Below are positions 2,446 through 43,771 of a stretch of 64,000 nt of DNA, one piece after another (the stretch's first letter is position 1; the number at the start of each line of letters is the position of its first letter). A model generated the notes under the pieces. It saw nothing but the letters and a program-made list of their open reading frames with translations, was not told the DNA's origin and did no database searches. The DNA comes from Desulfocurvus sp. Its GTDB lineage: Bacteria > Desulfobacterota > Desulfovibrionia > Desulfovibrionales > Desulfovibrionaceae. The translations under genes and the position numbers were made by a program. Location of the stretch: assembly GCA_020692325.1 (NCBI GenBank), contig JAIMKR010000004.1, forward strand, positions 108,401-172,400, given 5' to 3'.

Positions 2446-3429
2446 CTACAGGGTTATTCCCTGCCGCTCGGCGATGAGCTCGAAGGCGCGCCGGGTCAGG
2501 GTGGCTATGTCCGGCTTGGAGACCTGATCGTCCGCGCCGACGCTTTCGCCCTTGTGCCGCAGACGGTCGGTGATGAGCGAGGAGAACAGGATCACCGGCA
2601 GCTGCTTGAGCGTCGGATCGTCCTTGATGCGCCGGGTCAGGTTGTGTCCGTCCATAACGGGCATTTCGATGTCCGAGACGACGATGTCCACAAAGTCCGT
2701 GACCGGGACATTGGCCTGCGCGGCCCTGTCGCGCAAGGCGCAAAGGCTGTCCCAGGCCTCCTGGCCGTTGATGGTCTGCGTGACCTCGAAACCGGCCTTC
2801 TCCAGCATGGAGCCGATCATGCGGCGGATGCTGGTGGAGTCGTCGGTGATGAGCGCGCGATAGTGCTCCTTCTTGACGGGCTTCTTCTTCCCGATGTCGG
2901 TGAGTTCCGCCTCGCCGAAGCGCATGGCCAGCCCGGGGTTGAGGTCGGCCAGGATCTTCTCCATGTCCAGAATGAGCAGGATGCGGTCGTCGAAGCGCAC
3001 CACGCCGGTGACGCTGGAGCCGGAATACTCGTTGAGGTGGCGACCCGGCGGCTCCACCTGCGTCCAGCTGAGACGGTGAATGCGGTTGACGCCGGAGACC
3101 ATGAAGGCCGAGGTCATCCGGTTGAATTCGCTGACGATGACCTTGGTGTCCTGCCGCGGGGTGGACATGCCCTTGCCCAGCCACAGGGCCAGATCGATGA
3201 GCGGAATGATCCGCGAGCGAAGGTTGAAGGCCCCGAGCACCGAGGGATGCGGAATCTCCGGCAACTGCGTCACCACGGGCATTCGGATAATCTCCAACAC
3301 CTTGGCCACGTTGACGCCGTAAAACCCCCGGTAGGTCTTCCCCGAGGAAGGGTCCTTCTCGTCGATGAAGAACTCCACCAACTCCAATTCGTTAGTGCCG
3401 GACTCGAGCAGAATGTTCGTCTGGCTCAT
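2446..3429 (-). CDS. cheV: Chemotaxis coupling protein CheV (CheW-receiver)
   Basis: CheV couples chemoreceptors to the kinase CheA and can be phosphorylated to adapt signalling at the inner face of the membrane. The 327-residue protein has an N-terminal CheW-like domain (about 15-170; GFYGVNVAKVLEI, LGAFNLRSRIIPLIDL). A C-terminal receiver domain (about 190-325) follows, with acidic pocket TDDS, phospho-acceptor Asp in VSDIEMPVMDG and Lys in SKPD. Length fits the family. It is monocistronic here, and its upstream region faces the pilus operon promoter. A GATACGTATC palindrome lies about 40 bases upstream of the start and is also found upstream of pilT. Confidence 0.93.
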   Translation of the reverse strand: MSQTNILLESGTNELELVEFFIDEKDPSSGKTYRGFYGVNVAKVLEIIRMPVVTQLPEIPHPSVLGAFNLRSRIIPLIDLALWLGKGMSTPRQDTKVIVSEFNRMTSAFMVSGVNRIHRLSWTQVEPPGRHLNEYSGSSVTGVVRFDDRILLILDMEKILADLNPGLAMRFGEAELTDIGKKKPVKKEHYRALITDDSTSIRRMIGSMLEKAGFEVTQTINGQEAWDSLCALRDRAAQANVPVTDFVDIVVSDIEMPVMDGHNLTRRIKDDPTLKQLPVILFSSLITDRLRHKGESVGADDQVSKPDIATLTRRAFELIAERQGITL

Positions 3430-3812
3430 GGGCCCTCCACATGGCTACTGACGATTTTCGTAGGTTATGATACGTATCCGACTTTCCATGCGCTGTAAAC
3501 AGAATGCCCAGGCCACCACGAGGGAAATAGCATCTATCGACGAATCGACACGCCCGCGTCGGCCATTCGTTATCCGCAAGGCGCGGACCGCCTTGATCGC
3601 GGCGCGTTCCGGGGACGCGCGGCGGGGCATTTTGCCCTTGACTTTGCACCCGCTCCAGAACTACTATTGATTAGTATTTTTAAAAAAGTATAGATTTTTT
3701 TGCGGGAATCTATCAAACTTCACTAAAGATCGGATCGTCCCCCAACAGGGACGGCCCGATTTGTCTGTCTGCACAAAGCCGTCAGCATGGCCCGGGGACA
3801 ATCGGAGCGCGC
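3430..3812. other. Intergenic region between cheV and the pilus operon
   Basis: Divergent control region of 383 bases. It contains the palindrome GATACGTATC (3469-3478) followed three bases later by CTTTCC, and a good sigma-70-type promoter reading toward the pilus genes (listed separately). An AT-rich patch with T and A runs lies at about 3668-3725. No coding sequence is evident. Confidence 0.6.
3638..3667 (+). promoter_or_regulatory. Probable sigma-70 promoter of the pilus operon
   Basis: TTGACT (3638-3643) and TACTAT (3662-3667) are separated by 18 bases and sit about 145 bases upstream of the first pilus gene. They lie in the only AT-rich stretch of the region. Assignment is by sequence resemblance. 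Confidence 0.55.
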
Positions 3813-5903
3813 GTGAACCTCAAGGATCGCCTCACATCCACGGAAAATCTGCTGCGGACCATTCGCGGCGGCCAGGCTTCGGCGCGCGATTCCCAGTCCC
3901 CCGGCGGGCCGCCGGCCACGGCCTCCACCAAAGGCTCCATCTGGACGCGTCCCCTCAGCCTGCGCGCCCTGCTTCCCGGCCGGGAGCGGCGCGGCGCGCC
4001 CGGTGAGACGACGAACGCGGCGACCAACCCACCGTCCGGCGGAGCCGCCGGTTCTTTCTGGACCAGACCGCTGCGTCTGGGCGGCAAGGGCAAGCCGCTG
4101 AGCGTCGGCGTGAGCGTATGCGCCCAAACGTTGTGCGTGGCGGTGGTGCGCAAGAGTTCGGGGGAGCTCACCGCGACGCGGCGCTTTCCCATCGGTCCCG
4201 GCCAGGCGCCGGGGGAAAAGAGACACGCGGCCTTTCTGCGTCAGTGCCTGAACGAGGTCGGCGTCACCGCCGTCGGAGCGGACCTGTGGACGGTGCTGCG
4301 CTCGACGGATCTGGACCTGAACGTCGTCACCGTGCCCAAGCTCTCGGGCGCGAAGCTCGACGCGGCGGTGTACTGGACCCTGCAACGCGAAAAGAAATTC
4401 GCCGACGCCGAATACGTGCTGGATTACCTCGTCCTCGGGCCGACGGACGACGGGTCGGGCCGGCTCGACGCCCTCACCTGCCTGACGCGCAAGCAGGATG
4501 TGGAGACGCTGCGCGCGGGCTTTCTGGCGGCGGGCGCGCCTCTTTCCGGCATCACCGCCATCCCCAACGCCTTTCTCGGCATGTACCGCCGGGGCGCGGC
4601 CCTGCCGGAGTTCACCCTGGCGGCGAACATCCACGTGGAGACGGATTTCTCGACCATCGGCCTGTACACCGGGGACCGCCTCGTCTTCAGTCGCTTCATC
4701 CGCTCCAGCGGGGCCAGCATGGTGGAGGCCCTGGCCGACCACTACCAGCGGCTGGCCCGTCCCAACCCCGCCACGGTGGACGACCTGGAACTGCCCCTGC
4801 CCGGCGACGAGCCGGCCACGCCGGAGGGGCGGGATTCCGCGGCCGAGCCACTGACCACCGAGGAGGCGCGCGCCATGCTGCGCCACGTTTTGCTCGGCGG
4901 CCCGCGGCCGGACTGCGCCGACAAGGTCCCGACGGTGACTCCGGCCGAGTGCGTCGACATCATCGCCCCGGCCATCGAGCGGCTGGCGCGGCAGGTGGAG
5001 CGCACCCTGGACTATTACGCCGGAGCGAAGCAGGTCCGCTGCGACGCCCTGCACCTGAGCGGCGAAATTTTCAGCTCCGGCGCCATCGCCCAGACGCTGG
5101 CCGGACAGCTCGGCTTCACGCCCACGCTTTTCGACACCGTCGCCATGACTCCCGGCGGAGGCGCGCTGACGCCCGAGGCCGACCACATGATTCTGGCCCC
5201 CGCCATCGCCGCCGCCTATTCCCAGACCGGGCGCGGCATCAACCTGCTGGACACGTACACCACGCGCACCGAGCGCGAGGCCCGGCGCACCGCCACCAGC
5301 CGTATGCTCATGGGGTTGGCCGGGTGCATGGCGCTGCTCGGCTGCGTCGGGTTCCTCATGGAGAACACCAATCGCGACAAACGCGCGCAGCTCGAACGGG
5401 TCAAGCAGGACATCGCGGCCCTGGGCCCCACCCTCGACGACTCGACCGTGCGGGCCAAGGCCGAGGCCTATCGCGACCGGCAGCAGGCCCTGCGCGAGGC
5501 CGCCAGCCGGCTCCTGGCCCCCGCCGCCCTGGTCGAGATCGGCAACTGCGCGCCGGAGAACGTACGCATCATTTCCTTCACCGCCGAGTATCCGCCGCCC
5601 AGCACGACGTCGCCCGGCCAACCAGGACAGCCCGGCCAGCCAGGTCAACCTGGACAACCAGGACAACCCACGCCGCAGCCGGCCGCCGGAGCCAAGGCCG
5701 CGCCCAAGTCCAACGGCGTCATCAGCATCGAGGGCGTCGTCAGCGGGGATCAGGCGGAATTCGACGCCGGTCTGGCCCGGTTCATCCTTTCACTGCAGGC
5801 CTCGCCCATGTTCTTCATGCCCGTTGTCAACGAGTCGGGACTGAAGGATCTGAGTGACGGAGGCCAGGTGCTCGCTTTCAGCATGCACATCGGGGTGAAG
5901 TGA
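3813..5903 (+). CDS. Pilus assembly protein, PilM-PilN-type fusion (MshI-like)
   Basis: First gene of the pilus operon; GTG start with GGAG five bases upstream. The 696-residue product begins with a low-complexity region containing two similar blocks (WTRPLSL and WTRPLRL). An actin-fold PilM/GspL-like ATPase domain follows (about 95-490). One transmembrane helix (around 495-515) leads into a PilN-like C-terminal segment with a coiled coil (about 517-575). A run of six GQP triplets lies near residue 600, encoded at 5617-5668, followed by a final small domain. PilM and PilN are usually separate proteins that recruit each other at the inner membrane; here one chain appears to do both, as in GspL-type or MshI-type proteins. 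The assignment rests on fold-level pattern and operon position. Confidence 0.8.
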   Translation: MNLKDRLTSTENLLRTIRGGQASARDSQSPGGPPATASTKGSIWTRPLSLRALLPGRERRGAPGETTNAATNPPSGGAAGSFWTRPLRLGGKGKPLSVGVSVCAQTLCVAVVRKSSGELTATRRFPIGPGQAPGEKRHAAFLRQCLNEVGVTAVGADLWTVLRSTDLDLNVVTVPKLSGAKLDAAVYWTLQREKKFADAEYVLDYLVLGPTDDGSGRLDALTCLTRKQDVETLRAGFLAAGAPLSGITAIPNAFLGMYRRGAALPEFTLAANIHVETDFSTIGLYTGDRLVFSRFIRSSGASMVEALADHYQRLARPNPATVDDLELPLPGDEPATPEGRDSAAEPLTTEEARAMLRHVLLGGPRPDCADKVPTVTPAECVDIIAPAIERLARQVERTLDYYAGAKQVRCDALHLSGEIFSSGAIAQTLAGQLGFTPTLFDTVAMTPGGGALTPEADHMILAPAIAAAYSQTGRGINLLDTYTTRTEREARRTATSRMLMGLAGCMALLGCVGFLMENTNRDKRAQLERVKQDIAALGPTLDDSTVRAKAEAYRDRQQALREAASRLLAPAALVEIGNCAPENVRIISFTAEYPPPSTTSPGQPGQPGQPGQPGQPGQPTPQPAAGAKAAPKSNGVISIEGVVSGDQAEFDAGLARFILSLQASPMFFMPVVNESGLKDLSDGGQVLAFSMHIGVK

Positions 5904-28314: not shown

Positions 28315-29982
28315 ATGCGTCCCAGCCCCAACGTCCTGGCCATACTGGCGGCAGCGTTCGCCGCGTTGGCCTGCGCCGTCGCCCTCAACTTCGGTTTCTG
28401 GTGGATCCAGGGCCGTCCGCAGGACATCCCCGACGCGCACGAACCACGCATAAAAAGCGCATCCTTCAGCCCCTACCGCCGGGGCCAGAGTCCCTTCGGC
28501 GCGACATTCACCCAGCGCCAGCTCCAAGAGGACATGGCCGTGGCGGCCAAGCACTTCTCGCGCATCCGCATTTACTCCAGCACCGGTCCCTTCGCCGACG
28601 TCCCCCGGCTGGCACACCAATACGGCCTCAAGGTCATCCTCGGCGCCTGGATCGGCGCAAGCCTGCCCGACAACGAGGAGGAGATCGCCGCCGCCATCAA
28701 AGCCGCCAACGAGTACCCAGACACCGTGGAGCGCGTGGTGGTGGGCAATGAGGTGCTGCTGCGCGACGAGGTGACGCCTGGGCTGCTCATCAGCTACATC
28801 CGGCGCGTCAAGGCCGCGGTCAGGCAGCCCGTCACCTACGCCGACGTATGGGAATACTGGCTACTGCACCCGGATGTGGCCCGCGAGGTGGACTCCATAA
28901 CCATCCACGTGCTGCCCTACTGGGAGGACAAACCCACCCCGCTTTCCAACGCCATTCCCCACATGCTCAAGGCGGTGGACGCGGCGAAACGCGCCTATGG
29001 CAAACCCGTGCTCATCGGCGAGATAGGCTGGCCCAGCGCCGGCCGCGTGCGCGAGGGCTCAGTGCCCGGCCGCGTGGCTCAGGCCGAGTTTGTGCGCAAG
29101 GTCATGAACGTCGCGGCCGAACGCGGCATCGACTACAACATCTTCGAGCTCTTCGACGAGCCATGGAAAGCCGGGCAGGAAGGCACCGTCGGCGCGCACT
29201 GGGGAATGCTCGACGCCGACCGGCAGATGAAGTTCCCCCTCACCGGCCCGGTGAGCGAAATGCCCAATTGGTTCACGGCCTTCTGTCTCTCCAGCGCGTT
29301 GGGCGTGGTGCTGGCCCTGCTGGCGCTCGGTCTGCGCCGGCCGGTCAAAGCCCTCGCCGGGGTCCGGGTCATGCTCGCGGCACAGCTCTTCGCCACGCTC
29401 CTGGCCACCAGCGCGTGGCAAAGCCTCCGCCTGGGTTTCGACGCCACGGGAATACTCTGCGGCGTTTTTTACACCGGCTGCGGCGCGCTGCTCTGCCTCG
29501 CGGTCTTTTCCGAACTGGCGGACCAGGCCGCCGGCCGCATTTCCGGGCCAAGCCCGCTCTCGCCCGTCGTGGCCCGGCTGGACGCTTTGCGCTCCGGACG
29601 CCTCAACGCCTTTAAAAACCGCGCCGGCCTCATCGGCCTGCTGGATCTGGCCCTCTCCCTGGCCGCACTATCCCAAGCGGTCGGACTGGTCATCGACCCG
29701 CGCTATCGCGACTTCCGCGTGGCCCAGCTGCTGCCCGTCACCCTGGCACTCATCGTGCGCCTGCTGGCCGGGCGCGAGCGGCAGAAACCCGTGGGCTCCG
29801 CACGCGAGGAATGGCTGTTCTGCGTCGTCCTCGTCATCTGCGCCCTGGTCACGCCGCCGCTGGAGACTCTGCGCAACCCCGCCGCGCTGGCCTGGGGCTG
29901 CACCCTGCTGCTGCTGGCCGCGCCATGGGCGGCGTCGATTCTGCGCCAGCGCCGCGCCGTGGCCGAGGGGCTCGCCCAATGA
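28315..29982 (+). CDS. Membrane protein with GH17-type glucanase domain
   Basis: A 555-residue protein with an N-terminal anchor (about 8-31). A glycoside hydrolase family 17-like TIM barrel (about 45-325) follows, with the acid/base Glu in VVVGNEVLLRDE and the nucleophile Glu in LIGEIGWPSAG. About seven transmembrane helices (about 325-545) make up the rest. GGAGG lies five bases before the ATG. GH17 enzymes act on beta-1,3-glucans; bacterial ones with membrane parts are linked to glucan synthesis or remodelling, usually next to a GT2 synthase, which is absent here. Topology suggests the barrel faces the periplasm. It overlaps the photolyase gene by four bases (ATGA). Confidence 0.85.
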   Translation: MRPSPNVLAILAAAFAALACAVALNFGFWWIQGRPQDIPDAHEPRIKSASFSPYRRGQSPFGATFTQRQLQEDMAVAAKHFSRIRIYSSTGPFADVPRLAHQYGLKVILGAWIGASLPDNEEEIAAAIKAANEYPDTVERVVVGNEVLLRDEVTPGLLISYIRRVKAAVRQPVTYADVWEYWLLHPDVAREVDSITIHVLPYWEDKPTPLSNAIPHMLKAVDAAKRAYGKPVLIGEIGWPSAGRVREGSVPGRVAQAEFVRKVMNVAAERGIDYNIFELFDEPWKAGQEGTVGAHWGMLDADRQMKFPLTGPVSEMPNWFTAFCLSSALGVVLALLALGLRRPVKALAGVRVMLAAQLFATLLATSAWQSLRLGFDATGILCGVFYTGCGALLCLAVFSELADQAAGRISGPSPLSPVVARLDALRSGRLNAFKNRAGLIGLLDLALSLAALSQAVGLVIDPRYRDFRVAQLLPVTLALIVRLLAGRERQKPVGSAREEWLFCVVLVICALVTPPLETLRNPAALAWGCTLLLLAAPWAASILRQRRAVAEGLAQ

Positions 29983-31364
29983 CGGACGCCCCCGCTCCCC
30001 CGGCGCAACCGCGTTCGACCGCCCCCGTCCATCCGGCCCGCGTCCGGCGCATCCTCGACCGCCCGGAAACGCCCGGTCCCGTGCTCTACTGGATGCACCG
30101 CGAAATGCGCGCCACCGGCAACTGGGCGCTTCTGCACGCGCGGGAGCGGGCCGCCGCCCGCAACCAGCCCCTGGCCGTTGTCTTCTGTCTGGCGGGCGGC
30201 TATCCGCCGGCGGCCATGAGCCACTTCGCCTTCATGATCCACGGTCTCGCGGAAACTGCGCGCACGCTGGCGGCCAAAGGCATCCCCCTCATGGTCCTGC
30301 GCGGCGCCCCCGGCCGCGAGGTGGCCGCCTTCGCCCGCGAAACGCGCGCCGGCCTCGTGGTGACCGACGCCGACCCCACAAAGCCCAAACGCGCCTGGCT
30401 GGCCGATCTGCTCGCCGACGCGGACTGCCCGGTGGAGGAAGTGGACGCGCGCAACGTCGTCCCCGCCCGGCTGGTCTCGCCAAAAGCCGAGGTCATGGCC
30501 CGCACCCTGCGACCCAAAATCCAACGCCTGCTGCCGGAATTCCTCACGCCCTTCCCGGAGCTCACGCCCCAGGACGCACCCTGGCCGGGCCCCGCGCCCC
30601 GCACCGACTGGCCCGCCCTGCTCGCCGAGTTCAGCACGCCGCAGCCTTCCTTCCCGCCCGGCGCGACCATGGCCGCGGCCACCCTCGAAAACTTTCTGCG
30701 CGAAGGTCTGCCCCGCTACGCCGACGCCCGCAACAGTCCCCTGGAGCCGGCCGGATCGCGCCTGTCCCCATATCTGCACTTCGGGCAGCTCTCCGCCCAA
30801 ACGGTCGCGCTGCGGGTTCTCGCCGCCAACGCCCCTGTCGAGGCGCGCACAGCCTTTCTGGAACAACTCATCGTGCGGCGCGAGCTGGCTGAAAACTTCT
30901 GCCTTTACGTTCCGCATTACGACACCATCGACGCCTTTCCCGCCTGGGCCAAAGCCACTCTGGGCAAACACGCGACCGACACCCGCGCCGTTTTGCCCGA
31001 CGACCAGCTGGAGGCCGGCGAGACGCCCGATCCGCTCTGGAACGCCGCTCAACGGCAACTTCTCGCCACAGGGCACATGCACGGCTGGCTGCGCATGTAC
31101 TGGGCCAAGCAGCTGCTCCCGTGGTCGCGCGACGCCGAAACCGCCCTGGCCCGCGTGCTACGCCTGAACGACTCGCTCTCCCTCGACGGACGCGACGTGA
31201 ACGGTTACGCCGGCGCGGCCTGGAGCATCGGCGGCGTCCACGACCGCCCCTGGCCGGAACGGCGCGTGTTCGGCTGCGTGCGCTCCATGACCGCCAGCGG
31301 AGCGACGCGCAAATTCAACGTCCGCGCCTTCGTCGAACGCTGGACCCGACCCAGCCTGATTTAG
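29979..31364 (+). CDS. phr: Class II deoxyribodipyrimidine photolyase
   Basis: A 461-residue light-dependent DNA repair enzyme that splits cyclobutane pyrimidine dimers using FAD. Class II features: YWMHREMRATGNWALLHA near residue 37, SRLSPYLHFGQLSAQ, MHGWLRMYWAKQLLPWS and LDGRDVNGYAGAAWSIGGVHD near the C-terminus. An N-terminal extension of about 30 residues (Pro/Ala-rich) precedes the photolyase domain. The ATG overlaps the preceding stop (ATGA). A photolyase in an apparently anaerobic lineage suggests exposure to light in shallow or surface habitats. It is followed by a repeat-rich convergent region. Confidence 0.93.
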   Translation: MTDAPAPPAQPRSTAPVHPARVRRILDRPETPGPVLYWMHREMRATGNWALLHARERAAARNQPLAVVFCLAGGYPPAAMSHFAFMIHGLAETARTLAAKGIPLMVLRGAPGREVAAFARETRAGLVVTDADPTKPKRAWLADLLADADCPVEEVDARNVVPARLVSPKAEVMARTLRPKIQRLLPEFLTPFPELTPQDAPWPGPAPRTDWPALLAEFSTPQPSFPPGATMAAATLENFLREGLPRYADARNSPLEPAGSRLSPYLHFGQLSAQTVALRVLAANAPVEARTAFLEQLIVRRELAENFCLYVPHYDTIDAFPAWAKATLGKHATDTRAVLPDDQLEAGETPDPLWNAAQRQLLATGHMHGWLRMYWAKQLLPWSRDAETALARVLRLNDSLSLDGRDVNGYAGAAWSIGGVHDRPWPERRVFGCVRSMTASGATRKFNVRAFVERWTRPSLI

Positions 31365-32111: not shown

Positions 32112-35057
32112 CTACCAGGCCACGGGCAGACGGGCCTTTTGCCCGGCCTTGTTCTGGAAGAGCACGTAACGTTTCTCGCGACCAAAGAGGTACAGATCGC
32201 GGGTGACGGCGACGTCCTGGCGGCAGTATTTGGTGATTTCGTCGAGTTTGCCCTCGGTCCACCATTTGAGGGCGAGGAGGCCGTCGGCGCTTTTGCCGAC
32301 GCCGAGGGTGGCCTGGGCGAGGTTGTCGAGCTTGAGACGGTACCCCAGACGCTCGTGCACGCGCAGCAGCAGGTCGAGGGTGGGCAGATTCCGCCAGGGG
32401 AAGGGATGGATGCCCGCCAGCACGCCATAGTCGAAACGCATGATGTTGAAACCGACGACGAGGTCCATTTCGCGCAAGCGCTCGGCCAGGGCGGGAATTT
32501 CGTGCTCCTCGTAATCCACGAACTCGTCGCGGCCGGAATCGTAGAGCACGGCGATGCTGACACCCATGAGGTCCGCCCGGTTCCAGCCGCCGACCTCGGC
32601 GGCGCTGCGCCGCGTCTCCACGTCCACCACGCCGAAGCGCTTGGGCACGATGAGGGCGGGGCCGGATTCCCCGGCGGCGGACGATGCACCGAACGTCGGC
32701 TTCGCGTCCACGACGGCCTCCTGGTTTGGCTGGGGGTCGGCCGGGGAGATTTTGGGGGCGATGTCCGGTCCAGGCTGCCCGGTGACGAGGCGCCGCAGGA
32801 GGAAGAGGGCGGCGGCCTTGTCGATGGGCCGGTTGCCGCTGCCGCATTTGGGCGAATGCACGCAGGAAGGGCAGCCGAGTTCGCAGGGGCAGTCGCGCAC
32901 CACGGCGAGGGTGCGCTCGAGGAGCTCCTCGGCGCGGGCGTAGGCCTCGCGGGTGAGGCCGGCTCCGCCGGGCATTCCATCGTAGATGAACACGGCGGAG
33001 CCGCCGGTCTGCGGATGCAGGGGAATGGAGATGCCACCCAGGTCGTTGCGGTCGGTAAGCACGAGCAAGGGCAGGATGCCTATGGCCGCGTGCTCCAGGG
33101 CGTGGATACCGCCCATGAAATGCAGATATTCGGCCTCGGCGGCATGACGGGCGTCGTCGGGCACGTCCAGCCACATGCCCTCGGTGACGAAGACGGCGGG
33201 CGGCATGTCCAGCGGCATCATGCCCAGCAGCGTGCCCCCCTTTGTGCTGCGTTTTTCGAAGCCGGTAATGTGCTCGGTGACGCGGAGCTTGGCGCGGGTG
33301 AAGCGGGTGCCCAGCACCACGCGCCGGTCGTAGACCTCCAGGATCTCCGTCTCCTTGCTGCTGCGCACGCGGGTGTAATAGCCCACGCGCGCGGCGCGCG
33401 CCTTGACCGTGCGGCCGGGCAGATCGAGGCTTTCGATGAGGTACGTGCGGCCCCGATGCAGATACACCGCGCCCGGGTGCGTCTCGCGGCAGGCGCGCAG
33501 GGTGTCCACCGCGCCGATGACCTCGCCGGTTGCGGCGTCCTCGATGGCGATCTGCGCGCCCGCGCCACGCAGGTCCACGTCGCGCTGGGGGCGCTTGCGC
33601 GGCGAGAGCACCTCGCGGCCGTCCTCGCTTTTGAGCAGCTCACCCTTGTCGAGGAGTTCGGCCAGAGCCTCGCGCGCACCGGGGGAATCGAGATAGGGCT
33701 CGCCCTGGCCGGAGATGTCCAGTGGCAGCTCCGAGGCGGCGCAGACGAGGTGTCGCGGCAGAATGACCGGATTGGCCGGGTTGAGCACGGCGTTTTCCGG
33801 CGGCCGGGCGAAAAAGTCCTCGGGATGACGCATGAAGAACTGGTCCAGCGCGTCCTCCTGGGCGACGAGCACCACGGCGCTCTCCTGCCGGGCCCGGCCC
33901 ACGCGGCCACCACGCTGCAGGGTGGCCATGACGCTGCCGGGGTAGCCCACGAGGATGCACACGTCGAGGCCGCCGATGTCGATGCCCAGTTCCAGCGCGC
34001 TGGTGCTGATGACCGCCAGCAGCTCTCCCGAGGCCATGCGCGCCTCGATCTCTCGGCGTTCCTCCGGCAGGAAGCCCGCGCGGTAGGCGCTGATCTTGTC
34101 CTTGTACTTGCCGCTTTTCTCACTGGCCCACAGGGCGATGAGTTCGGTCATGCGCCGGCTTTGGGCGTAGACGATGGTCTTGAGCCCGCGCGAAAGCGCT
34201 CCCCGCAACAGCTGGATGGCAGCGCTGGCCGGACTGTCCTCCGGGTTGAGGAAGACCATGTGCCGTGCGCCCGCTGGCGCGCCGCTCTCGATGACGGGCG
34301 TGGCGTCGAGCCCCGTGAGCATGTGGCAGAGTTCCGCCGGATTGCCCACCGTGGCGGAGCAGAACACGTAGGACGGGTCGGACCCGTAATAGCGGCAGAT
34401 GCGCGCGAAGCGCCGCAGCACCTGGCTCATGTGCGCGCCCATCACCCCGCGATAGGTATGCACCTCGTCGAGCACCACGTGGGTGAGGGTGGCGAAGACC
34501 TGCGCCCAGGTGCCATGATGCGGCAGCATGGAAAGGTGCAGCATCTCCGGGTTGGTGAGCAGCAGGTTGGGCGGATGCTTGCGGATTTTGGCGCGCTGCG
34601 AGGGCTTGGTGTCGCCGTCGTAGATGGCGGCGGTGGGCCGGCGCGCCTCGGGCACGGCGGTCAGGCCGTCCACGAGTTCGTTGAAGCCGCGCAGCTGGTC
34701 CTGGGCCAGGGCCTTGAGCGGATAGACCGCGATGGCGCGGCTGTCGGGGTTGGCGAGCACCGCCTCGATGATCGGCAGCTGGAAGGCGAAGGTCTTGCCG
34801 CTGGCTGTGGGGGTGGCCACCACAACGTGCCGGCCGGAGCTCACGATGTCCGCCGCGAGGGATTGATGGCTGTAGAGGTCGTCGATGCCGCGCGCGGCGA
34901 GCATCTCGCGGATGGCGCGGGGCCAGGGCCGGTGGGGCTCGGCGTATTGGGCCTCGTGCCCGGGGATGAGCCTGTGGTGGCACACCTGCCGGCCCAGGCG
35001 ATCGCTGGCTAAAAGCGCGGCGATGAATTCGGCGACGTTCGATGAGGCTTCCGACAT
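32112..35057 (-). CDS. DEAD/DEAH helicase with DUF1998 zinc domain fused to DEDD exonuclease-like domain (MrfA-MrfB fusion)
   Basis: A 981-residue protein. Residues about 40-460 form a superfamily 2 helicase: Walker A ATPTASGKT (81-89), DEVH (197-200), SAT, and motif VI QRGGRVGRARQ. A DUF1998-type region follows with the four-cysteine CPCELGCPSCVHSPKC cluster (about 722-740), the layout of YprA/MrfA. After a linker comes an RNase H-fold domain (about 805-975) with DxE in VVDVET, FD in NIMRFDYG and YCRQD, the DEDDy exonuclease pattern of YprB/MrfB. In Bacillus subtilis MrfA and MrfB are separate and repair mitomycin C damage; here they are one chain. An equivalent DNA repair role is inferred. 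Confidence 0.9.
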   Translation of the reverse strand: MSEASSNVAEFIAALLASDRLGRQVCHHRLIPGHEAQYAEPHRPWPRAIREMLAARGIDDLYSHQSLAADIVSSGRHVVVATPTASGKTFAFQLPIIEAVLANPDSRAIAVYPLKALAQDQLRGFNELVDGLTAVPEARRPTAAIYDGDTKPSQRAKIRKHPPNLLLTNPEMLHLSMLPHHGTWAQVFATLTHVVLDEVHTYRGVMGAHMSQVLRRFARICRYYGSDPSYVFCSATVGNPAELCHMLTGLDATPVIESGAPAGARHMVFLNPEDSPASAAIQLLRGALSRGLKTIVYAQSRRMTELIALWASEKSGKYKDKISAYRAGFLPEERREIEARMASGELLAVISTSALELGIDIGGLDVCILVGYPGSVMATLQRGGRVGRARQESAVVLVAQEDALDQFFMRHPEDFFARPPENAVLNPANPVILPRHLVCAASELPLDISGQGEPYLDSPGAREALAELLDKGELLKSEDGREVLSPRKRPQRDVDLRGAGAQIAIEDAATGEVIGAVDTLRACRETHPGAVYLHRGRTYLIESLDLPGRTVKARAARVGYYTRVRSSKETEILEVYDRRVVLGTRFTRAKLRVTEHITGFEKRSTKGGTLLGMMPLDMPPAVFVTEGMWLDVPDDARHAAEAEYLHFMGGIHALEHAAIGILPLLVLTDRNDLGGISIPLHPQTGGSAVFIYDGMPGGAGLTREAYARAEELLERTLAVVRDCPCELGCPSCVHSPKCGSGNRPIDKAAALFLLRRLVTGQPGPDIAPKISPADPQPNQEAVVDAKPTFGASSAAGESGPALIVPKRFGVVDVETRRSAAEVGGWNRADLMGVSIAVLYDSGRDEFVDYEEHEIPALAERLREMDLVVGFNIMRFDYGVLAGIHPFPWRNLPTLDLLLRVHERLGYRLKLDNLAQATLGVGKSADGLLALKWWTEGKLDEITKYCRQDVAVTRDLYLFGREKRYVLFQNKAGQKARLPVAW

Positions 35058-35210
35058 GGCCCGAGCATAGGGGAAAGCGGGGCGGGGGGGAAGAGGGGGG
35101 AGGTGGGGCCCCCCTCAAACGGAATGGTAACCTGCTTTACTTCGATGAGCTATTCTGTGGGGAAACCGTCTATTGTTATCAAAACATGAGCTCCACGAAG
35201 CAAAGCCTGC

Positions 35211-36453: not shown

Positions 36454-37833
<1,380 letters not shown>

Positions 37834-37872
37834 CGCGTCTCCGTCAGGCAGAAGGTGAATCGGGCGGGAGGA

Positions 37873-39405
37873 TCAGGCCCCGGCCGGCGGCTGTTGCGCA
37901 GCGTCGGCGGGGGGGGCGGGGTCCCGCGGCTGCGGAGCCGGGCCCACGGCGGGCAGGACGAGTTCCACCAGCGCGCCGCCCTCGGGATGGTTTTTGAGCG
38001 TCACGCTGCCGCCGTGGCTTTCCACGATGCTGGTGACGATGGCCAGCCCCAGGCCCGTGCCGGTGTCCTTGGTGCTGAAGAACGGGTCCTTCATCTTGTC
38101 GAAATTCTTTGGATCGAATCCGGGGCCGGAGTCGTGCACGAGCAGGCTCAACCAGGGGCCGTCCTCGCGTTCCGCCTCGCCCTCCGCAGGCGACAGTGGC
38201 CGCACCTTCACCTCGATGCGCCCGCCCTCGGGCATGGCCTGCATGGCGTTGCCCAGCACATTGTACACCGCACGGTACAGCAAATCGCGGTCGCCGCGCA
38301 CCAGCGTGTTCTCCGGGCAATCGCGGTAGAGCCGAATGCCCCGGTCCTCGCATTCGCGCTCCAGAAACACGCAGGCCTGCTCCAGAATGCGGCACAGGTC
38401 CGCCTCTCCCATGCGCGGCTGCCTGGGCCGCGCGTAGTCCAGAAAGTCGTTCACCGTGCGCGAGAGCCGGCGGCTCTCGTCGTAGATGGCCTCGATGATG
38501 CGCGTGTGCGGGTGATTGTCGGCCTTGGCCTTCTTGAGCACCAGCTCGGCGCTGCTTTGAATGATGCCCAGCGGGTTTCTGATCTCGTGGGCCACGCCAG
38601 CCACCATGCGCCCCATGCCGGCCAGCTTCTCCTGCTGGTGCAGCTCGGCGGTGAGCTTCTCCTTCTCGGCCTGCCGCTCCGCGCTGATGCGGTCCACCCG
38701 GCGCAGAATGCTGATGATGAGCGAGAAAAGCACCATGCTGGTGATGAGCGAGGAGGAATAGACCAGCCGTTCGAAGTTGACCACGGCCATATAGTCGTCG
38801 GTGATGTCCTGGCTGAACTCCAGAATGCCCATGATGGGATTTTTGACGCCGGGACCAAAGTTGCGCTCCATGCGCAGGGGGGTGAACCCGCGCAGCACCA
38901 CGCTGCCGGGCCGCAATTCCAGTTTGAACATGGCCGAAAAGGCCGAGATCTTGCTGAACAGCTCGAAGCTGGCCTCCTCGTGGTTGAGGGCGCGCTTGAC
39001 GCCCTCGCCGGCGAGCCCCGTGCGCAGGATCAGATTCGGATCGGTGCAGTAGGTCACACGCAAATCGGGATCATAGATGCGCACCTCCTGCACGTGGAAG
39101 CTGTGGATGGTGCTGCGCACCACCTGATCCAGGCGGGTGAACTGGTCGGGGATGCGCAGGGATATCTGCCCAAAACCGATGATGGTGGGCAACGTGAAGC
39201 GGGTGAAGATCTGGTGCGACAGGTTCTCGGAAAGCAGCAGGCCGAATTCCTTCTGCTTTTCCAACAACACACGCTCCGCGTGCTTGGACAGGAACGCGGA
39301 GAGCGCCAGGTTGGTGCCCAAAATGAGGATGAGAAAGATCCAGGTGAGGACCTTCACGAACTGCAAGGGCTTGTGCGAGCCCAGCAGGTTGGAATAGATG
39401 CTCAA
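37873..39405 (-). CDS. Membrane sensor histidine kinase
   Basis: A 510-residue sensor: transmembrane helix 1 (about 16-38), periplasmic sensor domain of about 185 residues with a PAS/CACHE-like pattern (VQEVRIYDPDLRVTYCTDP, GVKNPIMGILEFSQD), transmembrane helix 2 (about 228-248), HisKA with phospho-His in VAHEIRNPLG, and HATPase (NVLGNAMQAMPEGG, GPGFDPKNF, GTGLGLAIV). The Pro/Ala-rich tail is dispensable-looking. It lies between pgi (3-base gap) and the cognate regulator, so all are probably one transcript starting at aspC. The NtrB/AtoS-like form matches a sigma-54 regulator partner. The stimulus is unknown. Confidence 0.92.
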   Translation of the reverse strand: MSIYSNLLGSHKPLQFVKVLTWIFLILILGTNLALSAFLSKHAERVLLEKQKEFGLLLSENLSHQIFTRFTLPTIIGFGQISLRIPDQFTRLDQVVRSTIHSFHVQEVRIYDPDLRVTYCTDPNLILRTGLAGEGVKRALNHEEASFELFSKISAFSAMFKLELRPGSVVLRGFTPLRMERNFGPGVKNPIMGILEFSQDITDDYMAVVNFERLVYSSSLITSMVLFSLIISILRRVDRISAERQAEKEKLTAELHQQEKLAGMGRMVAGVAHEIRNPLGIIQSSAELVLKKAKADNHPHTRIIEAIYDESRRLSRTVNDFLDYARPRQPRMGEADLCRILEQACVFLERECEDRGIRLYRDCPENTLVRGDRDLLYRAVYNVLGNAMQAMPEGGRIEVKVRPLSPAEGEAEREDGPWLSLLVHDSGPGFDPKNFDKMKDPFFSTKDTGTGLGLAIVTSIVESHGGSVTLKNHPEGGALVELVLPAVGPAPQPRDPAPPADAAQQPPAGA

Positions 39406-42278: not shown

Positions 42279-42408
42279 CCGGGTGAAACGCCTCGGGACG
42301 CGTCCGCGTCCAGGGGCGTTTCACCCGGCCTAAGGAGTCCAGAGGACGAATGTCCTCTGGCGGGGTCCGGGGCTGGCCCCGGCGGGGGCTCGGGGGCGGA
42401 GCCCCCCT
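42279..42408 (+). repeat. Composite multi-hairpin element R2, copy 3 (diverged stems)
   Basis: H1 is a 16-bp stem: CCGGGTGAAACGCCTC (42279-42294) with GGGGCGTTTCACCCGG (42313-42328). H2 CCAGAGGAC (42339-42347), loop GAAT, GTCCTCTGG (42352-42360). H3 CCGGGGC (42367-42373) with GCCCCGG (42376-42382). A GGGGGCTC/GAGCCCCC dyad follows. The order and the GAAT loop match copies 1, 2 and 4, but the stem sequences differ with pairing kept. Confidence 0.75.
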
Positions 42409-42565
42409 GTACTTCTCCTCCCACTCGTCAACCCACTTTTTTCATCCTTTTCACGGCCGAAATCGCCCCCATTTTATCCTCACACGCAACTTGGCGGTAT
42501 ACTTGCCGATCCTCGCCCACCCGCTCGGGGAATCCAACACCGGCGCGCAAAACCAAGGAGCTGCC

Positions 42566-43771
42566 ATGCCCACTCCATTTCCCGCATTTCAGCGCGACCA
42601 GAAGGGCCGTATCACAGAACGCAGTTTGAACCTCGGCGGCGAGGCCGAGACCCGACGCTACGCCTACGATTCCGCCGGCCGCCTGACCCGCGTCACCGAC
42701 GGCCTGGGCAACCTGCTGGAATCGTATCTGTACGACGGCGAAGGCCGCCGCCTCGCGGACATCAACCCGCGGCGTTTTCGCGGCGAACGGCGCTACACGT
42801 ATGGCCTGGACGACCGGCTGTTGCAGGCTGGTCGCGTTCAGTTCGACCATGATCGCGCGGGATTCCGTAACCTGAGAGTCGATGACGCGGGATTGAATCC
42901 GCGCGAGACGCGTTACCTCTACGAGCCTTCGGGCCTGCTGCTGGCGGTGGATATGCCCGGCGGCGAGCGCATCGAATACGCTTACGATTCCAATGGGCTG
43001 CGGCGTGAAAAACGCATCGACGGCGGGCTCGTGGAGGCCTTCGAGTGGCTGGACGCGCTGCGCTTGCGGGAATTTTTTGACGGCGAGCGCTGGTGGCGGC
43101 TGGTGTACGATCCGGCGCGCCCGGGCCGCACGCCCATCGGCGTGACCGACGGCGAGGCGTCCTTTCTCATTTCTTCCGATCACCTGGGCACGCCGCGCGC
43201 CCTTGCCGACATGGACGGAAACGTTGTACAGACGATGCGGTACGACGCCTTCGGCAACCCGCTGCGGGGGATTCAGGGGCCTGTGCGGCTCCCCCTTGGC
43301 TTCGCGGGCGGGCTTTTCGACGCCGATACCGGGCTGACGCGCTTCGTCTGGCGGGACTATGACGCCGACACGGGGCGCTTCACCGCGCTCGACCCCATGG
43401 GCGTGAAGGGCGGCGACAAGGACCTCTACGGCTACTGCGTCGATGATCCGGTCAATCGGCTGGACGCGTGGGGGCTAGAGAGCAAGACGGCTCAGAATGG
43501 CTCCACGGGGAACGGGGATGAGGAGCCAGCAAAAGCTGCTGGCAAGCACATCGTGGGCAACGGGATCAAAAGCGCACTGTGGAATGCCGCCAGCGTATAC
43601 CGCACTGAGGGCATGGCTGCTGCTGCAGCACGTGGAGCACTCGGTCTCGGGACGGGGATGATTTTAGGAACCATGCTGGAATCCCCCCCGGTTAAAGAAA
43701 AGGTGAACCAGGCCATTACATGGTTCGAAGACAACTATAAACAAACTGATGATGGCACGATGCAGGATTAA
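42566..43771 (+). CDS. Small RHS-repeat protein with variable C-terminal tip
   Basis: A 401-residue RHS protein. It has YD-repeats (RRYAYDSAGRLTRVTDGLGN, YLYDGEGRR, IEYAYDSNG) and the RHS core end (DHLGTPRALADMDGNVV, YDAFGNPL, FVWRDYDADTGRFTALDP, DKDLYGYCVDDPVNRLDAWGL). A tip of about 94 residues (about 308-401) follows, with a glycine- and alanine-rich stretch (about 355-375) and LESPPVKEKV. AGGAG lies five bases before the ATG at 42566. Full RHS toxins are usually over 1000 residues, so this is a minimal core. The tip is related to that of the displaced copy at 44040-44531 (shared LExPPV). A small two-helix membrane gene follows two bases later, as immunity genes do. Confidence 0.85.
   Translation: MPTPFPAFQRDQKGRITERSLNLGGEAETRRYAYDSAGRLTRVTDGLGNLLESYLYDGEGRRLADINPRRFRGERRYTYGLDDRLLQAGRVQFDHDRAGFRNLRVDDAGLNPRETRYLYEPSGLLLAVDMPGGERIEYAYDSNGLRREKRIDGGLVEAFEWLDALRLREFFDGERWWRLVYDPARPGRTPIGVTDGEASFLISSDHLGTPRALADMDGNVVQTMRYDAFGNPLRGIQGPVRLPLGFAGGLFDADTGLTRFVWRDYDADTGRFTALDPMGVKGGDKDLYGYCVDDPVNRLDAWGLESKTAQNGSTGNGDEEPAKAAGKHIVGNGIKSALWNAASVYRTEGMAAAAARGALGLGTGMILGTMLESPPVKEKVNQAITWFEDNYKQTDDGTMQD

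Follow-up and report, generated by a model that had tools for sequence, protein, structure and literature searches.

Is the helicase-exonuclease gene at positions 32112..35057 of this DNA a natural fusion of the Bacillus proteins MrfA and MrfB, as an earlier note on the sequence had claimed, or does it join a helicase and a nuclease of other lineages? By the window, we mean the whole 64,000-nucleotide stretch that was analyzed.

A helicase and an exonuclease in one chain

The gene lies on the minus strand (32112..35057, stop codon included) of a 3.05 Mb genome that is 100% complete, and it encodes a protein of 981 amino acids. Its ATG start codon at 35057 aligns with the ATG of aligned relatives, which supports the start. 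The domains and motifs of the protein given below are all on this strand. Pfam identified the two motor domains, RecA1 (DEAD; residues 63–240, 34338..34871, 6e-28) and RecA2 (Helicase_C; residues 282–389, 33891..34214, 1.5e-14), followed by a winged helix (WHD_HRQ1; residues 426–499, 33561..33782, 6.5e-09) and an MZB/DUF1998 zinc-binding domain (residues 654–733, 32859..33098, 1.8e-21). The Pfam query lacked the first Met, and these residue numbers are already shifted by one. Among 46 aligned rows, the Walker A sequence TPTASGKT (residues 82–89, 34791..34814) is near-invariant, and D197, E198, and H200 of the Walker B/DEVH box (residues 197–200, 34458..34469) are invariant. The four-Cys cluster (C723, C725, C729, and C732; 32862..32891) is invariant in 46/46 full-length rows. 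The protein thus has the SF2 motifs, winged helix, and four-Cys MZB domain of the YprA/MrfA family, and B. subtilis MrfA (PDB 6znp) matches residues 29–734, in the numbering of the query without Met, at 1e-145.

A flexible linker (residues 773–800, 32658..32741), with pLDDT below 50 in the AlphaFold2 model, precedes a DEDDy 3'-5' exonuclease domain (residues 806–981, 32115..32642) that is recognized by profile, model, and fold matches. The Pfam family RNase_H_2 matches the fusion protein just above its cut-off (3.5e-05; 24.2 bits versus 22). Five catalytic residues are invariant in all 46 of the aligned full-length proteins: D812 and E814 of the ExoI motif (32616..32624), the ExoII aspartate D876 (32430..32432), and Y944 and D948 of the ExoIII motif Y944-C-R-Q-D948 (YxxxD; 32214..32228), where MrfB has His in place of the Tyr.

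The full-length AlphaFold2 model (pLDDT 87.6, pTM 0.87) superimposes on MrfA 6znp with a Z score of 38.3 and an rmsd of 6.2 over 727 residues at 36% identity, and the best structure other than MrfA reaches a Z score of 27. The C-terminal 176 residues modeled alone (pLDDT 95.4) adopt an RNase H-like fold, which bears out the earlier expectation of a DEDD fold at the C-terminus and places the D-E-D-Y-D residues on the scaffold typical of DEDDy DnaQ-fold enzymes. The top solved folds for this domain are the proofreading 3'-5' exonuclease domains of family A and B DNA polymerases; the comparison with 5mdn gave a VIA Z of 15.5 and an rmsd of 3.6 with 162 residues aligned. DNA polymerase exonuclease domains also lead the fold matches of MrfB (PMC11194089), and the fold search is unable to tell the fused exonuclease from MrfB; the absence of the MrfB structure 8un9 among the 50 matches listed is uninformative. 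The protein is a YprA/MrfA-type SF2 helicase with a C-terminal RNase H-fold DEDDy exonuclease in one chain. In this respect, the earlier note was right: Pfam, the 6znp match, and the residues conserved in 46/46 proteins all place a four-Cys SF2 helicase and a DEDDy domain in a single frame.

Distribution of the fusion gene

We surveyed genomes of a single phylum, using the exonuclease domain as the query. Matches were found in 181/199 genomes of the class and in 69/247 genomes of the phylum, nearly all of them within frames of ~950–1200 amino acids. The best 80 of 582 loci were named, and 75 of these 80 have both domains in one frame. The arrangement is therefore not due to chance, and the same domain order does recur in other genomes. 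Four of the other five loci lie too close to a contig end. The fifth (L076) has helicase and exonuclease in separate frames of one locus, because the gene is frameshifted or split or because the assembly is wrong there. Among these best 80 of 582 loci, the closest relatives of the exonuclease domain are from Humidesulfovibrio MAGs (85%), which points to a Gram-negative, sulfate-reducing member of the Desulfovibrionaceae as the source, and the record titles name sulfate reducers and deltaproteobacteria, along with a few MAGs labeled just "Proteobacteria" or "Gammaproteobacteria." The fusion gene is lineage-wide and widespread in Desulfobacterota, and is no oddity of a single genome.

Two stand-alone copies of the fused-type exonuclease were also seen. 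One (L267, 219 amino acids) is the sole match in its genome and directly follows a gene resembling that of an HD-type dGTPase; the two genes lie at 3113–3769 and 3773–4936. The other (L265, 188 amino acids) is in a genome that also has the fusion, downstream of an RmuC-like gene; the two genes lie at 717–1898 and 2367–2930.

The same phylum also has two-gene mrfAB operons, in which an MrfA of ~800 amino acids is encoded beside an MrfB of ~440 amino acids. Across the 247 genomes, 69 have the fused-type exonuclease, 21 have a verified mrfA-mrfB pair, and none has both (Fisher p 0.0007 for co-occurrence, uncorrected for ancestry). This pattern fits one pairing replacing the other. In the source genome, we found no separate mrfB, and its sole RNase_H_2 match is the fused gene itself.

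Ancestry of the helicase and the nuclease

Against the window helicase, other fused helicases score 650–1134 bits, single YprA helicases 584–786, and the MrfA proteins of mrfAB pairs 406–487. We built a 69-row helicase tree by a quick method with SH-aLRT support. A branch of 100% support and length 0.64 splits the tree in two, with B. subtilis MrfA and 27 in-phylum MrfA-type rows on one side and the fused (33) and single YprA (8) rows on the other, so that the fused helicase falls outside the MrfA side. An adjoining mrfB was verified for 21 of the 27 MrfA-type rows; the other six (L240, L268, L269, L271, L272, and L273) were assigned as MrfA-type, with no adjoining mrfB in the stretch fetched. 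On the non-MrfA side, two changes are required to explain the fused rows, and one of them is owed to L247, scored as "single" although a contig end cuts its gene; the tree is thus compatible with one origin of the fusion or with more. The tree strongly suggests that the fused helicase belongs to the "single YprA" branch and has an ancestry separate from the MrfA of mrfAB operons. The fusion protein shares with B. subtilis MrfA/YprA (6znp) the SF2 core, winged helix, OB/CON, and four-Cys MZB, and differs in its family branch, its added C-terminal exonuclease, and the lack of a separate mrfB.

We also tried NCBIfam TIGR03817 as a branch marker and set it aside, as fused, single, and MrfA-type proteins all score 644–722 bits, below the cut-off of 874. 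At another locus (L246, 1–2670), the contig begins within an MrfB-like fragment, which overlaps the beginning of the gene for a YprA helicase; in Bacillus the two genes come in the opposite order.

Like B. subtilis MrfB/YprB (8un9), the nuclease is a DEDD exonuclease of the DnaQ fold that partners a YprA helicase. However, MrfB is a DEDDh enzyme with catalytic His258 (PMC11194089). MrfB-type proteins of the phylum keep an HNxxD motif, stand-alone RNase_H_2 proteins of the phylum mostly have YNxxD, and the fused family has Tyr in 46/46 proteins. The residue four positions before the last Asp, His in DEDDh enzymes, is Tyr944 in the fusion; the earlier DEDDy label holds, and this invariant Tyr is what separates the fused domain from MrfB. 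Furthermore, the ExoI loop of the fused domain reads ETxxSAxEVGGW and lacks the TETTGL wedge of MrfB, and the alignment places Ser818 at the position of the wedge residue Leu113. Pfam found no TPR in the fused chain, which ends with the exonuclease, whereas canonical MrfB gives TPR matches.

Profile comparisons separate the two nucleases further. With an in-phylum canonical MrfB as the query, 8un9 is found at 9e-33, whereas a profile built from 27 fused domains does not recover it at E up to 1. The fused domains listed score ~28–41 bits against RNase_H_2 versus mostly 115–141 for MrfB-type proteins, and hhalign gave 40 for fused versus MrfB, 55 for fused versus RNase_H_2, and 119 for MrfB versus RNase_H_2. 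Since the fused domain passes the RNase_H_2 cut-off, the fused nuclease, MrfB, and the RNase_H_2 proteins would be distant kin.

Relatives of the fused exonuclease are also found outside cellular genomes, as seven phage matches and one weak plasmid match. A scan of viral contigs with the exonuclease returned 64 relatives, and the 14 viral frames inspected are all of 192–342 amino acids, with no room for a helicase. Several of these 14 carry the VGGW and YCxxDVxLT signatures, and viral relatives such as L278 and L279 share both D-x-E-T...(D/E)VGGW and YCxxDVxLT with the fused domain. The best viral matches are ~31–35% identical to the fused exonuclease. The window domain hits phrog_403, a phage family annotated as "DNA polymerase exonuclease subunit," at 1.8e-14, as does a canonical MrfB at 1e-5, and the best BFVD structure is H9C0I0 (214 amino acids, TM 0.78). 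These stand-alone DEDDy exonucleases of viruses and phages (L278, L279, phrog_403, and H9C0I0) are ~200 amino acids long and, unlike the fusion, leave no space for a helicase in their frames.

Two exonuclease trees were calculated, both with long branches. In a 69-row tree without viral rows, MrfB groups with RNase_H_2 proteins at 99/86, and a clade of fused domains plus MrfB is not rejected (AU p 0.10). In a 62-row tree that includes viral stand-alone exonucleases, the same MrfB and RNase_H_2 grouping has 100/99 support, and the AU test rejects a clade of fused domains plus MrfB (p 0.027). Of the viral rows in this tree, three branch with the fused rows at an unresolved fork and the other eight lie elsewhere, a placement compatible with transfer in either direction. 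The 62-row tree covers 17/34 fused-family rows and 11/64 viral loci, with the phage row L277 left out for its long branch and the viral rows L289 and L294 poorly trimmed. Neither tree includes L257 (fused) or the MrfB rows L228, L231, L232, and L234, all of which the motif search missed, nor the L246 fragment or two loci with verified mrfB (L270 and L274). Taking sequence, profiles, and trees together, we consider it likely, with moderate confidence, that the fused nuclease and MrfB are of separate ancestry.

The main alternative is that an ancestral mrfAB operon was fused, after which the TPR was lost and the nuclease diverged, including the change of His to Tyr. Such a history would account for a domain order that equals the operon order, for the detection of the fused domain by a profile that also covers MrfB, and for the AU p of 0.10 without viral rows. 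A 2025 preprint also mentions YprA helicases "fused to" MrfB/YprB homologs (PMC12458937). Against this history stand the helicase, which lies off the MrfA side across a 100% branch; MrfB, for which other RNase_H_2 proteins, not the fused domain, are the closer relatives; the AU p of 0.027 once viral rows are included; and the relatives of the fused domain, which are stand-alone genes on viral contigs. We consider this history unlikely. A fusion of MrfA and MrfB was set aside as the best reading because the helicase and exonuclease trees, the catalytic residue, the missing TPR, and the profile comparisons speak against it, with the AU p of 0.10 in the set without viral rows as a caveat.

The central claim of the earlier note, that MrfA itself is joined to MrfB, is therefore not supported: the helicase lies beyond the 100% branch, and the nuclease differs by residue, domains, profile, and, less forcefully, tree. 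What survives of its one-polypeptide MrfA/MrfB-type model for a Gram-negative bacterium is the MrfA/YprA-family helicase, the DEDD fold, and the catalytic residues; the identity of the two parts as MrfA and MrfB lacks support. Because the fusion probably does not derive from the MrfA and MrfB lineages, it also says little about contact between MrfA and MrfB in Bacillus, which it had been taken to support, and is a second, apparently separate pairing. In our literature search, no publication described the fused nuclease as belonging to a DEDDy or otherwise non-MrfB family, with the supplements of PMC12458937 outside that search.

Proposed function and alternatives

The best explanation, and one we consider probable, is that the fusion protein combines a 3'-5' helicase and a 3'-5' exonuclease in a single chain, serves in DNA repair, and arose separately from the MrfA and MrfB pairing. 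We infer all of its enzymatic activities, its polarity, its repair role, and the coupling of motor and nuclease. MrfA is described as a 3'-5' helicase and MrfB as a 3'-5' exonuclease (PMC12458937), and in a joined MrfAB model the free 3' end of MrfA-bound DNA lies near the MrfB active site (PMC11194089). Complementation is described as requiring alleles that are close relatives (PMC12458937). By analogy, the N-terminal 760 residues would form a YprA-family SF2 motor that moves 3' to 5' on single-stranded DNA beneath an OB/MZB canopy, as in MrfA. After a linker of ~40 residues, the DEDDy DnaQ-fold exonuclease would use two metal ions to remove nucleotides 3' to 5'. In the simplest model, the motor would draw in the damaged strand, and the tethered nuclease would degrade the 3' end emerging behind it, leaving a gap for refilling. 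Because the two polarities would be the same and only the tracked strand has a trailing 3' end, the nuclease would trim the strand on which the motor moves. The exonuclease would belong to a family of its own, whose stand-alone members occur on viral contigs, and the fusion would occupy the niche held by MrfAB in other members of the phylum.

A more specific version, to which we give slightly less than an even chance, is that a phage-type DEDDy exonuclease and a single-YprA helicase were joined in Desulfobacterota into a one-chain, same-polarity enzyme that replaces the unrelated MrfAB, making it a convergent, WRN-like repair enzyme. Human WRN has a 3'-5' helicase and a DEDDy 3'-5' exonuclease in one chain, but differs in its RecQ motor and N-terminal nuclease. 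Similarly, S. aureus ExoDinG (SaDinG) has a helicase and a DEDD exonuclease in one chain, but with an XPD/DinG motor of 5'-3' polarity and an N-terminal DEDDh exonuclease. Crosslink repair by SaDinG needs both its helicase and its exonuclease activities (PMC12345164), so one-chain helicase-exonucleases do function in repair of this type.

If the independent assembly is correct, YprA repair helicases have been coupled at least twice to DnaQ-fold 3'-5' exonucleases, from different nucleases, and the coupling itself, rather than MrfB, would be what selection retains. It would also tie a new nuclease class to YprA helicases, and naming such proteins MrfA-MrfB fusions would import the wrong nuclease identity. 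In a fusion, the motor and nuclease are present in a set ratio and at a set distance from each other, making "unwind and trim the same strand" testable with one protein.

We think it improbable that the protein is instead an anti-phage effector, in which the YprA helicase would load onto invading DNA for degradation by the exonuclease. Another YprA branch is defensive, often with C-terminal nucleases (PMC12458937), and the window protein does match the defense helicases BrxH, DruE, and DpdJ. However, these PADLOC matches cover a helicase core common to many SF2 proteins, and the protein has 981 residues versus ~1700 for forms found in some of the same genomes. Its presence in 181/199 genomes of the class is like that of a core gene rather than a defense-island gene. 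The inactivated C-terminal RNase H fold of TALON (PMC12458937) is not seen here, as the five catalytic residues are invariant. No neighbor is conserved either: the best cluster of neighboring frames covers 24/75 loci plus the window, and an operon with defense partners, as in Druantia, ARMADA, or Dpd, is not seen; the neighbors in the window include a photolyase gene and a two-component pair. Least probable in our judgment is a nuclease directed at RNA or RNA-DNA hybrids (R-loops or RNA turnover) rather than damaged DNA, since, although DEDDy folds include the exoribonucleases RNase D and NrnC (PMC11194089), the nearest matches among solved folds and among phage families are, respectively, proofreading domains and an exonuclease subunit of DNA polymerases, and the solved MrfA complexes contain DNA.

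Returning to the proposed repair enzyme, we looked for LexA boxes upstream of the gene in the window and in five relatives using five consensus patterns and found none; damage induction is therefore unsupported. A CCCCTA-like run lies directly upstream of the start codon (35058–35085) and recurs in several relatives of the genus. Farther upstream, on the same strand as the fusion, is a pair encoding a sigma-54 response regulator and a histidine kinase (36454–39405, minus strand), and an RHS/teneurin YD-shell repeat protein is encoded at 42350–43771 (plus strand). On the other side, a gene for a DNA photolyase domain protein (29811–31364, plus strand; PF00875, 2.5e-30) converges on the fusion gene and is another DNA repair gene in its vicinity.
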